Positions 2,241-19,614 of a stretch of 23,585 bases of DNA are shown piece after piece. A model generated the notes under the pieces. That model had not been told where the DNA came from. It saw only the letters and a program-made list of their open reading frames with translations, and did no database searches. The stretch is from Oscillospiraceae bacterium (GTDB taxonomy: Bacteria; Bacillota; Clostridia; Oscillospirales; Oscillospiraceae), in contig JAFYCQ010000033.1 of NCBI GenBank assembly GCA_017539635.1, positions 1-23,585 of the forward strand, in the 5' to 3' direction. Numbering within the stretch: position 1 is the stretch's first letter; every line of letters starts with the position of its first letter. Both the position numbers and the translations under genes were made by a program.

Positions 2241-3098
2241 TATCCCGAAATAATCAAGCACGAAGCTCCTGAACCTCAGCCCGCCTGAAGAGAGGAGCTT
2301 TTCTCTTTTAAAACATACGTTCATGTCCCGGCAGAAGTCGTCTTCCCAGATATGGGCGAGGTGGATATTCGGGTCGTCGGCGAAAATGCCGCTCTCGCTC
2401 TCCGGCAGCACGCACTCCCCTATCCCGGCGGAAACAAACTCCTTCTGCATTATGAGGCTGTCAACCAGGGCGGCGGTGTGCAGTACTACCCCTGCCCTGC
2501 GGCAGAGGGCATCCAGCTCCTTAGCCGGCTCCAGCCTGATGAATCTCAGCTTTTCCATGTCAGATGCCTCGGCAAAGGCCGCGTCCCCCATGTCGCTGCT
2601 TCTGTGGACGGCCAGCACATACCGCTCCTTTGCCACCCGGAAGCCCCGATATTTCTTATAGCTCTCGTCATTGCCGGAATAGAGCAGCGCGTCAAAGTCG
2701 CTTATATCTATCCTGGTGTTCTCTATCCCGCTTTTTATCTCCACCGCCACGTCGGGGTTCTGCTCCATAAATTCCCGGACGCAGCCGGTGAGCAGATTGC
2801 TGCTGCCCCATATGCCCACGACTATCCGCTCGCGTCTGCGGGAGAGCTCGCGGAAGCTCTCGCTCACCGTCTCCACCTCCGTTAGTATGGGGCGGATGCG
2901 GGCGAAAAAGGCCTTTCCCTCGGAATTAAGGACCACGCGCCGGCCCAATCGGTCGAAAAGGGGAGTATTGAGCTCCTCCTCCAGCTTCCGAATGGCCTTG
3001 GTGAGTGAGGGCTGGGAGATGTGCAGATTCTGCGCCGCCTTTGAGAGGTTCTCCGTCTTCGCCGCCTCGGCGAAATACTTTAACTGTGTAAGTTCCAT
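2232..3098 (-). CDS. LysR-family transcriptional regulator
   Basis: A 288-aa LysR-type regulator of normal family length. Residues 1-60 form the winged helix-turn-helix (LTQLKYFAEAAKTENLSKAA, then ISQPSLTKAIRKLEEELNTP LFDR), and the rest is the periplasmic-binding-like effector domain. The start is fixed by AAGGGG (complement of 3107-3112) eight bases before the ATG. The gene is divergent from the aldehyde:ferredoxin oxidoreductase gene with a 151-bp gap, the classical layout in which a LysR protein controls its neighbour and itself. By inference it regulates the redox locus; the effector is unknown. Its leader contains a hairpin built from a repeat that recurs at 15901-16061. Confidence 0.93.
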   Translation of the reverse strand: MELTQLKYFAEAAKTENLSKAAQNLHISQPSLTKAIRKLEEELNTPLFDRLGRRVVLNSEGKAFFARIRPILTEVETVSESFRELSRRRERIVVGIWGSSNLLTGCVREFMEQNPDVAVEIKSGIENTRIDISDFDALLYSGNDESYKKYRGFRVAKERYVLAVHRSSDMGDAAFAEASDMEKLRFIRLEPAKELDALCRRAGVVLHTAALVDSLIMQKEFVSAGIGECVLPESESGIFADDPNIHLAHIWEDDFCRDMNVCFKREKLLSSGGLRFRSFVLDYFGIRE

Positions 3099-16415: not shown

Positions 16416-17777
16416 ATGACGCTTGAGCTTAAAAACCGGGCTTTTTACCGCAAGACTCTGCATCTCATGCTCCCGGTGGTGCTCCAGCAGCTTATAACGA
16501 TAGGCATAAACTTTCTCGACAACATAATGGTGGGCGGCTTCGGCGAGACCCAGATCTCCGCCGTCTCCTTCGGCAATCAGTTTTACTCCTTCTTTCAGTT
16601 TATATGCATGGGTCTGGGCTCGGGAGCCATCGTGATGTCCTCCCAGTTCTGGGGCCGGAAGGAGACTGAGCCCATGAAGGTGGCGGCCGCCATGGCCCTG
16701 CGGCTGACGGCGGTGCTTTGCGCGGTATTCACCGCAGTCTGCGTCATATTCCCCGGCCTTGTCCTGCGGCTCTTCACCGCCGACGGGAACATCCTCTCCG
16801 TGGGCGCTCCCTATGTGCGGCTTATAGGCGTAACCTTCATTTTCGCCGGTCTTTCCTCCACCGCCACCTACCTTTTGCGCAGCATCGGCCAGACGAGGGT
16901 GCCTCTCATCGGCTCTCTCATCGCTTTTTTCCTGAACCTGTTCTTCAACTGGGTGTTCATATACGGAAAATTCGGCGCGCCGAGGCTGGAGCTGGTGGGC
17001 GCCGCCGTGGGCACCATTATCGCCCGTCTCTTTGAGTTCTGCTTCGTCTTCGGGTATTTCATTTTCAAGGACGGCGGCTTCGGCTTCCGCCCGAAGCACC
17101 TGGCGCTGTCGGGCAAAACCCTCCGGGGGCAGTATATAAAATACAGCATACCCGTGCTTATAAGCGACACCTCCTTAGGGCTTAGCCTTACCATAACCAC
17201 CATGATAATAGGCCACTTGGGAGAGGAGATCTCCGCTGCCAACGCCATAGTCCTCTCCGCCATGCAGATTCTGACCGTTCTGAACATGGGCATGTCCGGC
17301 GCCTCCGCCATAACCGTCGGCAACACCATCGGCGAGGGGGACATCCCCAGAGCAAAGCGGGAGGGTGCGACCTACGTAATAATCGCCTTTATCCTGGGCC
17401 TTATCGCCGTGCCCCTGTTCCTGCTGCTGGAAAACCCGTATCTGTCCCTTTACAACATCGGCGGCGACACCCGCACGATAGCCCACGGCATGATAGTAAT
17501 AATCTGCTGCATGATGCCGGTGCAGACCGTGGCCTACGTCACCTCAAAGGGAATACTGAGAGGCGGCGGCGACACCCGCTTCCTGCTCATCGCCGACAGC
17601 AGCCTTATCTGGCTTGTGTCCATCCCCTTGGGAGCCCTGGCGGCCTTTCTATGGCACATGTCCCCCCTGTGGGTGTTCTTCCTCATAAGGGTGGAATACC
17701 CCTTGAAGGGCATAGTGTGCTTCATCCGCTTCTGCACGGGAAAATGGATACGGGAGATTAAGGCGGCGCAGGATTAA
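16416..17777 (+). CDS. MATE-family multidrug/metabolite efflux transporter
   Basis: A 453-aa, twelve-helix MATE transporter of normal length, exporting drugs or metabolites by Na+ or H+ antiport. The two homologous halves are visible: LHLMLPVVLQQLITIGINFLDNIMVGGFGE starts the first (shown in pieces here as LMLPVVLQQLITIG and NFLDNIMVGGFG), with QFWGRKE as the family loop; the second starts at KYSIPVLISDTSLGLSLTI. GILRGGGDTRFLL is the conserved C-half loop. The start is fixed by AGAGGTC and a consensus promoter. No terminator lies directly after the stop; the next promoter begins five bases later, so MATE transcription may run into the small-RNA module and end at its hairpin. Substrate unknown. 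Confidence 0.92.
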   Translation: MTLELKNRAFYRKTLHLMLPVVLQQLITIGINFLDNIMVGGFGETQISAVSFGNQFYSFFQFICMGLGSGAIVMSSQFWGRKETEPMKVAAAMALRLTAVLCAVFTAVCVIFPGLVLRLFTADGNILSVGAPYVRLIGVTFIFAGLSSTATYLLRSIGQTRVPLIGSLIAFFLNLFFNWVFIYGKFGAPRLELVGAAVGTIIARLFEFCFVFGYFIFKDGGFGFRPKHLALSGKTLRGQYIKYSIPVLISDTSLGLSLTITTMIIGHLGEEISAANAIVLSAMQILTVLNMGMSGASAITVGNTIGEGDIPRAKREGATYVIIAFILGLIAVPLFLLLENPYLSLYNIGGDTRTIAHGMIVIICCMMPVQTVAYVTSKGILRGGGDTRFLLIADSSLIWLVSIPLGALAAFLWHMSPLWVFFLIRVEYPLKGIVCFIRFCTGKWIREIKAAQD

Positions 17778-17781
17778 ACTC

Positions 17782-17809
17782 TTGACATACGCCTGAATAT
17801 CGATATAAT
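17782..17809 (+). promoter_or_regulatory. Consensus promoter of the antisense RNA
   Basis: TTGACA (17782-17787), a 16-bp spacer and TATAAT (17804-17809): both hexamers are perfect consensus. Nothing protein-coding follows on this strand before a hairpin terminator at 17871, so it should produce a short RNA starting near 17816. Confidence 0.85.
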
Positions 17810-17815
17810 GATAAT

Positions 17816-17910
17816 AGAAAAAAGGCGTTGCCGAAAAGCGGCTCCGCCCGATTAGGTTATCTTGTTTCTAAGAAACCGTCACTGGTCAGGAGTGGCGGTT
17901 TCTGCTTTTC
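17816..17910 (+). ncRNA. Candidate antisense RNA (about 95 nt)
   Basis: The transcript is bounded by a perfect-consensus promoter (17782-17809) and an intrinsic terminator: AGAAACCGTCACT (17871-17883) pairs with AGTGGCGGTTTCT (17891-17903) through 13 bp with one wobble, followed by GCTTTTC. It contains no ATG and no ORF. It is antisense to the 3' half of the convergent minus-strand transcript, including the last codons of the 25-aa ORF and that transcript's own terminator. Its 5' end holds AGGCGTTGCC (17823-17832), the same sequence that begins the opposing mRNA. Boundaries are inferred from promoter and terminator positions. Confidence 0.7.
17818..17848 (-). terminator. Terminator of the 25-aa-peptide mRNA
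   Basis: On the minus strand GGCG-GA-GCCG, loop CTTTT, CGGC-AA-CGCC (complement of 17848-17824) is followed by six T (complement of 17823-17818). This is a compact intrinsic terminator that would end the peptide mRNA just where the antisense RNA starts. Confidence 0.7.
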
Positions 17911-18023
17911 ACACGTATCGTTACCGTCCAGAACAGGACGTGGAACGTCAATGTAATCGGCATGGCAGCACCCCCTTTCGTGTGGTGTGGCTTAAACCGC
18001 CTTTTTTCACTTTGGCAACGCCT
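17823..18023. repeat. Inverted repeat flanking the peptide module
   Basis: AGGCGTTGCC at 17823-17832 and its exact reverse complement at 18014-18023. On the minus-strand transcript these are the first ten bases and the 3' terminator region, so the mRNA ends can pair with each other. Confidence 0.75.
17886..17963 (-). CDS. 25-aa peptide, candidate type I toxin
   Basis: The product is 25 residues: a hydrophobic stretch rich in Thr, Val, Leu, Phe and Trp (ITLTFHVLFWTVTIRV) followed by a basic tail (KSRNRHS). This shape, a membrane-active stretch plus positively charged end, is common among type I toxins. The ATG at 17963 is preceded by AGGGGG with seven-base spacing. A promoter (ATGACA, 17 bp, TAAAAT; 18057-18029) places the transcript start near 18022, giving a ~60-base leader. 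The stop codon lies in the loop of the antisense RNA's terminator hairpin, and a separate minus-strand terminator lies at 17848-17818. I do not recognise a named family. Alternatives are a leader peptide or an orphan small protein; neither explains the convergent antisense RNA. Confidence 0.65.
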   Translation of the reverse strand: MPITLTFHVLFWTVTIRVKSRNRHS

Positions 18024-18028
18024 GTTTC

Positions 18029-18057
18029 ATTTTACTGAAAAATACCGGACTTGTCAT
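18029..18057 (-). promoter_or_regulatory. Promoter of the 25-aa-peptide mRNA
   Basis: On the minus strand: ATGACA (complement of 18052-18057), a 17-bp spacer and TAAAAT (complement of 18029-18034). The predicted start is at 18022-18023, the first base of AGGCGTTGCC. Confidence 0.7.
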
Positions 18058-18112
18058 ATCAAAGAATATTAAACAGCTCAGCGCGGATTGCGGAAATTAA
18101 GGCCTCCGGCGC

Positions 18113-18141
18113 TTGACAATCCGGCAAAGCCCATATAAAAT
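18113..18141 (+). promoter_or_regulatory. SigA-type promoter of proS
   Basis: TTGACA (18113-18118), a 17-bp spacer and TAAAAT (18136-18141). The leader is only about 30 bases, too short for a T-box. Confidence 0.82.
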
Positions 18142-18177
18142 ATTTATTTGCCGATATTTGTTAAGGGAGAAAGAAAA

Positions 18178-19614
18178 ATGGCTAAAGATAAACAGGTAAA
18201 TCAGATAACCGACATGGAGGTGGACTTCGCCCAGTGGTTCACCGACGTATGCACGAAAGCCGAGCTGGTGGACTACTCCGGCGTCAAGGGGCTTTTCATC
18301 CTGCGCCCCTACGGCTACGCCATCTGGGAAAACATAATGAACTATCTCGACCGGCGCTTTAAAGAGCTGGGTCACACCAACGTCTCCATGCCGCTTTTAA
18401 TACCGGAAAGCCTTTTGCAGAAGGAGAAGGACCACGTTGAGGGCTTCGCCCCCGAGTGTGCCTGGGTCACCCACGGCGGCGAGGAGGAGCTCTCGGAAAA
18501 GCTCTGCATCCGCCCCACCAGCGAAACGCTCTTCTGCGACCATTGGAGCCACATCGTCCACTCCTGGCGGGATCTGCCCTGCCTCTACAACCAGTGGTGT
18601 AGCGTACTGCGCTGGGAGAAGACCACAAGGCCTTTCCTCCGGGGCCGTGAGTTTTTATGGCAGGAGGGCCACACTCTCCACGCCACCGCCGAGGAGGCCA
18701 TTAAGGAGACCGAGCAGATGCTGGAGGTCTATGCCGACTGCCTGGAAAACTTCATGGCAATGCCGGTGGTAAGAGGCAGAAAGACCGACAAGGAGAAATT
18801 CGCCGGGGCCGAGGCCACCTACACCGTGGAGTGCATGATGCACGATAAAAAGGCCCTCCAGAGCGGCACCAGCCACTATTTCGGCGACGGCTTCGCCAAG
18901 GCCTTTGAAATAGCCTACATGGACAAGGACAATCAGCTAAAGGCCCCCCATGAGACCTCCTGGGGCTTCTCCACCCGCGTCATAGGCGGCCTTATCATGA
19001 CCCACGGGGACAATTCCGGCCTTGTGCTGCCGCCCCGCGTCGCCCCCATTCAGGTGGTGGTGATCCCCATCGCCTCTCACAAGCCCGGCGTACTGGAAAA
19101 GGCCGAGGAGATCACTAACCGCCTCAAAGCCGCCGGCATCCGGGTAAAGTGCGACGTTTCCGACAACTCCCCCGGCTGGAAGTTCGCCGAGTACGAGATG
19201 AAGGGCGTGCCCCTGCGCATCGAGCTGGGCCCCAAGGACATCGAAAAGGGCGTTTGCGTGGCCGTTTCCCGCGCCGACCGCTCCAAGACCGAGGTGTCCC
19301 TGGACGGCTTGGAGGCCGCCGTTCCCGGCCTTCTGGACGATATACACAACGCTCTTTACGAGAAGGCCGCCAAAAACCTTCGGGAGAACACCTTCGACGC
19401 CAAGACCCTTGATGAGGCCAAGGGCATAATCGAGGAGAAGGGCGGCTTCATCCGCGCCATGTGGTGCGGAGACCTGGAGTGTGAAATGAAGATGAAGGAT
19501 GCTGCCGGCGTTTCCTCCCGGTGCATCCCCTATGACCAGGAAAAGCTCTCCGACACCTGCGCCGTCTGCGGAAAGCCCGCCGACAAAATGGTGATCTGGG
19601 GCGTGGCATATTGA
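18178..19614 (+). CDS. proS: Prolyl-tRNA synthetase (short, eukaryote/archaea-like type)
   Basis: A 478-aa class II aminoacyl-tRNA synthetase that charges tRNA-Pro in the cytoplasm. Motif 2 region: [12 protein letters not shown] (from R112) and [20 protein letters not shown] (around 145-163). Motif 3 region: [12 protein letters not shown] (from G281). The editing insertion of bacterial-type ProRS is absent, and the C-terminus carries a Cys-rich zinc-type domain (C430, C435, CAVCGKPAD) ending in Tyr, all features of the short ProS type found in many Firmicutes. The ATG at 18178 is chosen because AAGGGAG lies upstream and the protein then starts [17 protein letters not shown]; the in-frame ATG at 18148 lies before that site and close to the promoter. 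Probably monocistronic. Confidence 0.96.

Follow-up and report, generated by a model that had tools for sequence, protein, structure and literature searches.

A probable type I-like toxin-antitoxin family with a short basic peptide and an antisense RNA in Oscillospiraceae

Introduction

A segment of about 275 bases (positions 17782-18057) in a contig of an Oscillospiraceae bacterium (GCA_017539635.1, JAFYCQ010000033.1; the 23,585 nucleotides analyzed are called the window) carries two promoters facing each other around a reading frame of 25 codons, matches no known family, and raises the question of what so small a pair of transcription units may do. An initial annotation, made from the letters alone, took it for an undescribed type I toxin-antitoxin system with a hydrophobic peptide. 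We followed the module through related genomes, viral contigs and plasmids, and we consider it quite likely to be a type I-like toxin-antitoxin module, with a candidate toxin and an antisense antitoxin, which probably represents a new family of this type.

Results

Layout of the module

Both promoters lay face to face where the initial annotation had placed them, with scores of 12/12 on the plus strand and 10/12 on the minus strand, and the 25-codon reading frame with AGGGGG upstream was present (Table 1). The plus-strand hairpin had the 13 bp claimed for it (17871-17903, including one G-U) with only four T after it. The minus transcript has its six T (17823-17818). The plus transcript is free of ORFs for ATG starts only, as two TTG ORFs overlap it and extend beyond the terminator. 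Within 17300-18600, four promoter-like sites were found against 0.9 in shuffles, and the simple terminator scan found none against 1.5 in shuffles, so that neither transcript end was scored. The same arrangement recurs in other surroundings, and judged by this recurrence the module is beyond chance. The predicted antisense RNA is the complement of the mRNA from its 3' UTR into the last peptide codons and leaves the ribosome site uncovered.

Upstream, the module is flanked by a plus-strand gene ending at 17777, which we take to be a MATE-type efflux protein, and downstream by a plus-strand gene from about 18178, presumably prolyl-tRNA synthetase. A leader peptide or attenuator for a neighbour was considered and rejected, the flanking genes being on the plus strand and the ORF on the minus strand, and the downstream gene having its own promoter-like site at 18113. 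The MATE efflux gene adjoins the module here (16416-17777) and lies about 1.7 kb away in Vescimonas (L126:1-1253), which may be coincidence.

Table 1. Predicted features of the module in window coordinates
Feature	Position	Strand	Basis or remark
Antisense RNA promoter, TTGACA-16-TATAAT	17782..17809	+	12/12 score
Predicted antisense (antitoxin) RNA, ~95 nt, ends estimated	17816..17910	+	From promoter and terminator; fold z -3.69
Antisense terminator, 13-bp stem then GCTTTT	17871..17909	+	Overlaps last codons of the peptide ORF, opposite strand
Linker, centre of sense/antisense overlap	17845..17870	.	Hypervariable among close copies
Peptide mRNA promoter, ATGACA-17-TAAAAT	18029..18057	-	10/12 score
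Predicted peptide mRNA, ~207 nt, ends estimated	17816..18022	-	Fold -76.3 kcal/mol, z -4.71
P1 5' arm, GGCGUUGCC	18014..18022	-	Partner 17824-17832
P1 3' arm, GGCAACGCC	17824..17832	-	Fold and pair counting
P2 5' arm, AAAGGCGGUUU	17994..18004	-	Partner in family structure 17834-17844
P2 3' arm, GAGCCGCUUUU	17834..17844	-	Partner 17979-17964 in window minimum-energy fold
Ribosome-binding site AGGGGG (17976-17971) within GAAA-loop hairpin	17969..17987	-	-6.6 kcal/mol
Candidate toxin peptide ORF, 25 codons	17886..17963	-	ORF list, family profile, coding selection
Six-T tract at mRNA end	17818..17823	-	Sequence

Occurrence and sampling

A search for conserved copies in Clostridia genomes had been proposed at the outset, and such copies were indeed found. 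By DNA search, the window's own genome contained a second, diverged copy (75% over ~105 bases), 7 of 60 genomes of relatives matched (own genome counted), and the peptide pattern was identical in kind throughout the first eight loci (nine copies). The peptide profile matched 67 of the 300 genomes drawn from the window's taxonomic family, with up to 11 matches per genome and several tandem module pairs about 290-350 bases apart. In wider draws it matched 12 of 295 genomes at the level of the order, a sample that takes in members of the family, 2 of 391 for the class and 5 of 398 for the phylum, the window's own genome being counted in every tally. When named genomes were scanned, 221 relatives emerged, and among the best 80 of them are Oscillibacter, Dysosmobacter, Flavonifractor plautii, Pseudoflavonifractor, Agathobaculum massiliense and many Lachnospiraceae MAGs.

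The module was also present in 20 viral contigs of IMG/VR, flanked in L193 (~3001-3075) by a tail-fibre gene and a holin and located in L202 (~3001-3075) after a major tail protein plus one further gene. The plasmid collection held one matching record, from Vescimonas fastidiosa, where no gene was listed at the copies viewed, the gene table of that collection being incomplete. Of two peptide types searched against the annotated phage collection, one had no match; the other matched two faecal records, both unannotated, with E 5e-5 and 0.1.

For the counts below, 148 distinct profile matches were reduced to 113 by filters on score, start codon, length and flanks, and to 107 without near-duplicates, and a second extraction, deduplicated by position, yielded 124 distinct module copies from 69 genomes or records.

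The peptide

The peptide was 25-28 aa long in 114 of the 123 modules with flanks, had a net charge of +2 to +7, and followed the pattern M-(R/P)-I-T-L-(T-F)-H-I-x-x-(F/Y/W)-T-V-T-I-x-V-K with a basic tail behind it. With the last eight codons excluded, 84% of the codons with a single difference were synonymous among 37 distinct ORFs and 75% among 47 ORFs, versus about 25% expected; the dN/dS-like ratio was 0.07 and 0.11, respectively, values that are lowered by collection through the peptide profile or pattern, which is biased toward conserved peptides. By these codon comparisons the peptide is under purifying selection.

The basic tail of the initial annotation was present, but the peptide has an alternating strand pattern in place of a typical hydrophobic membrane helix. 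AlphaFold2, applied with 20 family members to a 30-aa relative from a phage contig, not to the window peptide, returned a beta-hairpin (strands 2-7 and 10-15; pLDDT 93, 83 and 53 by ten-residue blocks; pTM 0.32) and no alpha-helical transmembrane domain of the kind found in membrane-associated type I toxins. For this relative the predicted fold is a beta-hairpin with a basic tail, unlike that of the reviewed membrane-associated type I toxins.

Read-through or recoding at a TGA in genome G065 was rejected, the profile having extended beyond the stop of a 22-aa subfamily. The C-terminal NRHSAK is doubtful as a protein motif, because other subfamilies end earlier and the longer peptides of genome G196 (L162-L164, L188) read the conserved terminator hairpin in a different frame; the conserved stretch looks to be mainly the antisense terminator.

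That the family could not be named was borne out by Pfam, NCBIfam and Rfam, in which nothing reached the curated cut-offs: 27 members had no such match in Pfam or NCBIfam, and neither the window nor 10 relatives had one in Rfam at gathering score (best sub-threshold L20_leader, 20.6 of 58.7 bits). The best sub-threshold protein family was Bac_small_YrzI, matched by 4 of 27 members in Pfam (E 0.034) and by 2 of 27 in NCBIfam (E 0.017); for the window peptide the scores were 14.7 bits in Pfam (cut-off 23) and 15.2 bits in NCBIfam (cut-off 47). A relation to YrzI was set aside since the matches were sub-threshold only; among the papers listed by a literature search nothing pointed to antisense control. 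PHROGs gave no match with E below 0.01, PADLOC gave none, and the profile search of PDB chains gave none at E <= 10. Five peptide strings were not printed in the literature searched, which leaves out most subscription journals and T1TAdb, where the family may be listed.

Promoters, terminators and solitary antisense genes

As for the antisense side of the proposed comparison between peptide and antisense conservation, the antisense promoter scored at least 10/12 in 105 of the 107 non-redundant modules (shuffles 0.8%). The mRNA promoter did so in 66 of 107 (shuffles 0.5%), leaving 41 without a score of at least 10, and a full 12/12 was reached by 65 antisense promoters versus 5 mRNA promoters. 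In the second set of 105 peptides, 17/19 viral and 83/86 genome copies had the antisense promoter, 14/19 and 54/86 had the mRNA promoter, and 11/19 and 78/86 had the terminator motif. In the antisense terminator (helix 4), 97.7% of the cells were paired and both-side changes occurred in 7 of 12 pairs. Promoter and terminator of the gene for the RNA antisense to the peptide mRNA are thus conserved in sequence.

The two modules below the antisense promoter threshold were L010 and L081. L010 (G153:C24), among the few toxin-like copies that lack an antisense promoter, has the peptide ORF and leader, with the antisense gene lost on the 3' side. At L081:1910-2400 a toxin module is followed in tandem by two more units with terminator hairpins, and the only antisense promoter lies at the far end; by its layout this is an array of antisense units.

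An ORF-blind search with the terminator pattern matched 74 of the 300 family genomes, and a reversed control pattern matched 13 of 300, once each. We also read 36 further places, which either matched the pattern but not the peptide or were weak peptide matches; three of them had no hairpin and three more resembled chance matches. The script classified 161 distinct hairpin places as 123 with peptide and antisense promoter, 24 with antisense promoter and no recognised peptide, 12 with neither, and 2 in which the peptide has no antisense promoter nearby, both of them in the L081 array. On reading, the peptide was present in four of the 24 (L047, L162, L174, L191), two were set aside (the truncated locus L114 and the last unit of the L081 array), a further solitary copy, assigned by the script to the neighbouring one, came from L157, and L186, whose promoter scored 9, was moved over from the neither class. 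This resulted in 20 solitary antisense loci (18 in the 300-genome draw, L126 and L213), counted among the pattern places read, a subset of all terminator-pattern places, and some of them retain a remnant of the 3' half of the ORF.

Peptide modules without a good antisense promoter numbered 2 of 107, and 5 of 105 in the second set, two of these scoring 9. Loss of the toxin half would accordingly appear commoner than loss of the antitoxin, as expected for a peptide harmful without its antisense RNA, although the two counts come from different searches and their ratio is indicative only. The initial annotation had held that loci with a broken ORF and persisting RNA structures would refute a toxin-antitoxin system. 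Taken literally, this was found in part, at the 20 antisense-only loci; what is gone there is the mRNA 5' half while the antisense gene survives, which is the direction that a toxin-antitoxin pair predicts.

mRNA folding and the ribosome site

The mRNA leader paired with its own 3' end at a mean of -47.9 kcal/mol versus -35.5 for mismatched partners (permutation z -25, the permutation ignoring relatedness among modules), and the own 3' end was better than the mean of the others in 102/107 modules; the pairing of the window module ranked only 16th and 44th among the 107. For pair counting, we aligned 55 mRNAs, namely the window and 54 of 78 candidates; these 78 were what was left once 11 named loci had been set aside, together with near-duplicates and modules with a low score, a short P2 or a long linker. 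With a structure predicted from the same alignment, 95.2% of the cells were paired, both-side changes occurred at 18 of 29 pairs, including all 6 pairs of P1 (helix 1), and 114 cells had both-side changes versus 30.7 in shuffles (0/500 shuffles). Sliding the partners brought pairing down to 34-52%. Pairing between the mRNA 5' leader and its own 3' end is thus supported by covariation.

A hairpin at the ribosome site was contiguous in 73/107 modules (shuffles 121/2140), and by eye about 20 of the remaining 34 had a bulged form. In a folding test, the ribosome site was locally paired in 71/105 modules versus 46% with shuffled upstream letters, a modest excess, and the mean folding energy was -14.6 versus -8.9 kcal/mol. 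The hairpin of the window is weak (-6.6 kcal/mol versus the family mean of -14.6), and in the window's minimum-energy fold the ribosome-site stretch 17979-17964 pairs with the 3' end at 17833-17848, replacing the P2 5' arm. Long-distance 5'-3' mRNA pairing with a hidden ribosome site, as in aapA/IsoA, was therefore found in this family.

One subfamily (L044, L045, L101, L113, L118, L120, L122, L210, L211, L294) has GGAGG in the 3' UTR beside the P2 arm, and several of its members have a ribosome-site hairpin resembling GCGAAAGC. L076 has N letters in part of the leader, upstream of the module and in the P1 arm region.

The linker

The linker adjoins the antisense terminator, was 20-50 nt long in 116/123 modules, and in the 103 of 123 modules that qualified its openness exceeded that of the remaining RNA in 89/103 mRNAs and 96/103 antisense RNAs. 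In 17 close same-genome pairs, which are not independent (three come from copies of G411), leader identity averaged 96% and fourfold sites were identical at 123/135, whereas linker identity was 0.44-0.70 in 11 pairs, 0.73-0.87 in 3 and 1.0 in 3. Low linker identity beside such agreement of fourfold sites shows that the linker is replaced faster than silent sites. Random linkers had a mean identity of 0.50 and a 95th percentile of 0.645, within which only 5/17 close pairs fell; the script-set linker borders take in part of P2 in several pairs, and P2 is misplaced in L050/L056. Identical linkers within a genome were seen for L078 (tandem), L014/L066 and L048/L055, which are very recent duplications or assembly duplicates.

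At similarity of at least 0.90, the median linker identity was 0.68 in 16 different-genome pairs versus 0.69 in 19 same-genome pairs. With turnover equal between and within genomes, the data fit a fast-changing recognition region and do not single out selection for separate antitoxins in one cell. Gene conversion of the flanks is a possible alternative source of the linker pattern.

Discussion

Proposed function and alternatives

We propose that the minus-strand mRNA encodes a basic peptide of 25 aa, which would be toxic to the producing cell when its synthesis is unchecked, and that the full-length mRNA would be inert through leader-3' end pairing and a hidden ribosome site. The plus-strand RNA, made from the better promoter, would probably first contact the mRNA in the open linker, after which the duplex could be cut or could block use of the mRNA, and the fast turnover of linkers suggests that the linker sequence may set which antitoxin acts on which mRNA.

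At the level of sequence, we found selection on the coding frame, a convergent pair of units each with promoter and terminator, pairing of the mRNA 5' and 3' ends, structure at the ribosome site and a variable linker. The type I-like reading of the initial annotation gains comparative support, being favoured by purifying selection on the peptide, conservation of the antisense promoter, cognate 5'-3' pairing, the ribosome-site hairpin, variable linkers, 20 solitary antisense genes, phage-borne copies and the second peptide set. It is weakened by the 41/107 modules without an mRNA promoter of at least 10, the three identical-linker pairs, the mere 5/17 random-like pairs, equal linker divergence between and within genomes, the modest excess of ribosome-site pairing (71/105 versus 46%), and the window copy itself, with its weak hairpin and its pairing rank of 16th and 44th. 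We also count against it the non-helical predicted fold, the position of the antisense RNA away from the ribosome site and the antisense-only loci, and with all of these weighed we still regard it as quite likely.

The peptide could instead be harmless, with a signal, stress or regulatory role, and the antisense RNA and mRNA fold would then set its level. Peptide conservation is compatible with any function, and toxicity is itself our deduction; however, solitary antisense genes, hypervariable linkers, multicopy genomes and phage carriage are what a toxin-antitoxin system predicts, though not proof of one, and we hold a harmless peptide to be rather unlikely. We give still less credence to the view that the locus serves mainly to make the plus-strand RNA, which would act in trans as a small RNA on other targets, with the peptide mRNA as its regulator or decoy. 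The better promoter of this RNA and the 20 loci that carry it alone would suit such a role, but conservation is lowest in the linker, where the RNA is most open, which fits poorly to fixed trans targets, and the peptide is under strong purifying selection. A non-autonomous mobile repeat with P1 and P2 as terminal inverted repeats would account for dispersed and tandem copies with inverted ends. We rejected it as very improbable, because the inverted repeats do not include the conserved promoters, which are located outside them, the arms vary in a compensatory way instead of holding to one sequence, and the peptide is under selection.

Beyond the type I-like reading itself, a broader one is possible, which we advance tentatively and with more doubt than belief: a large undescribed class in gut Clostridia, with a beta-hairpin cationic toxin, the last toxin codons doubling as antitoxin terminator, antitoxin specificity located in a hypervariable linker with fast turnover following duplication, and solitary antitoxins that could be antidotes. 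Solitary antitoxins of a host could then counter phage-borne or other incoming copies with a matching linker, and they make anti-addiction testable. Should the peptide prove toxic, its fold would set it apart as a toxin, and the linker pairs could serve as natural experiments on antisense RNAs acquiring new specificity. According to a 2019 review, type I knowledge in Clostridia is restricted to experimentally validated C. difficile modules (PMC6563280). The present family extends beyond these, to the commensals Oscillibacter, Flavonifractor, Dysosmobacter and Agathobaculum and to phage contigs.

Relation to known systems

The initial annotation had txpA/RatA and bsrG/SR4 as models, in which convergent genes overlap at their 3' ends as in this module; this likeness stands, but aapA/IsoA is closer in layout. 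In the par locus (Fst/RNAII) of plasmid pAD1, face-to-face promoters surround a small peptide gene whose ribosome site is hidden by structure, as here, and repeats make the two RNAs complementary. Unlike par, the end repeats of our module are inverted, which gives the two RNAs a common 5' sequence and lets the mRNA fold back on itself. SymE is larger than the peptide of this family.

Among the systems compared, aapA/IsoA of Helicobacter pylori has the closest layout, sharing a small peptide mRNA, long-distance 5'-3' pairing, hairpins hiding the ribosome-binding site, a cis-overlapping antisense RNA and several copies per genome, and it requires 3' trimming for mRNA activation (PMC6733600). It belongs to another phylum, and AapA1 is listed with a validated alpha-helix (PMC8309996), whereas a beta-hairpin is predicted here; the AapA peptide was compared with this family only through PDB chains (no match at E <= 10). 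The txpA/RatA and bsrG/SR4 systems of Bacillus subtilis are alike in prophage residence, but for them toxins of 28-60 aa with a transmembrane domain are given (PMC6563280), and our peptide has no family match. The type I systems of Clostridioides difficile, such as CD2517.1-RCd8, share with this module the occurrence in Clostridia, convergent overlap, prophage copies and antitoxins mostly specific to their own toxin, and by description their toxins differ, with 34-59 aa, a transmembrane region and demonstrated toxicity (PMC6563280; PMC7699646). The SymE-like type I toxin in Clostridium clostridioforme prophages is likewise predicted and from gut Clostridia prophages (PMC11318856), and SymE, a cytosolic type I toxin (PMC8309996), is set apart from our peptide by description. 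Taken together, these comparisons suggest a type I layout whose peptide is unrelated and appears to have a different fold.
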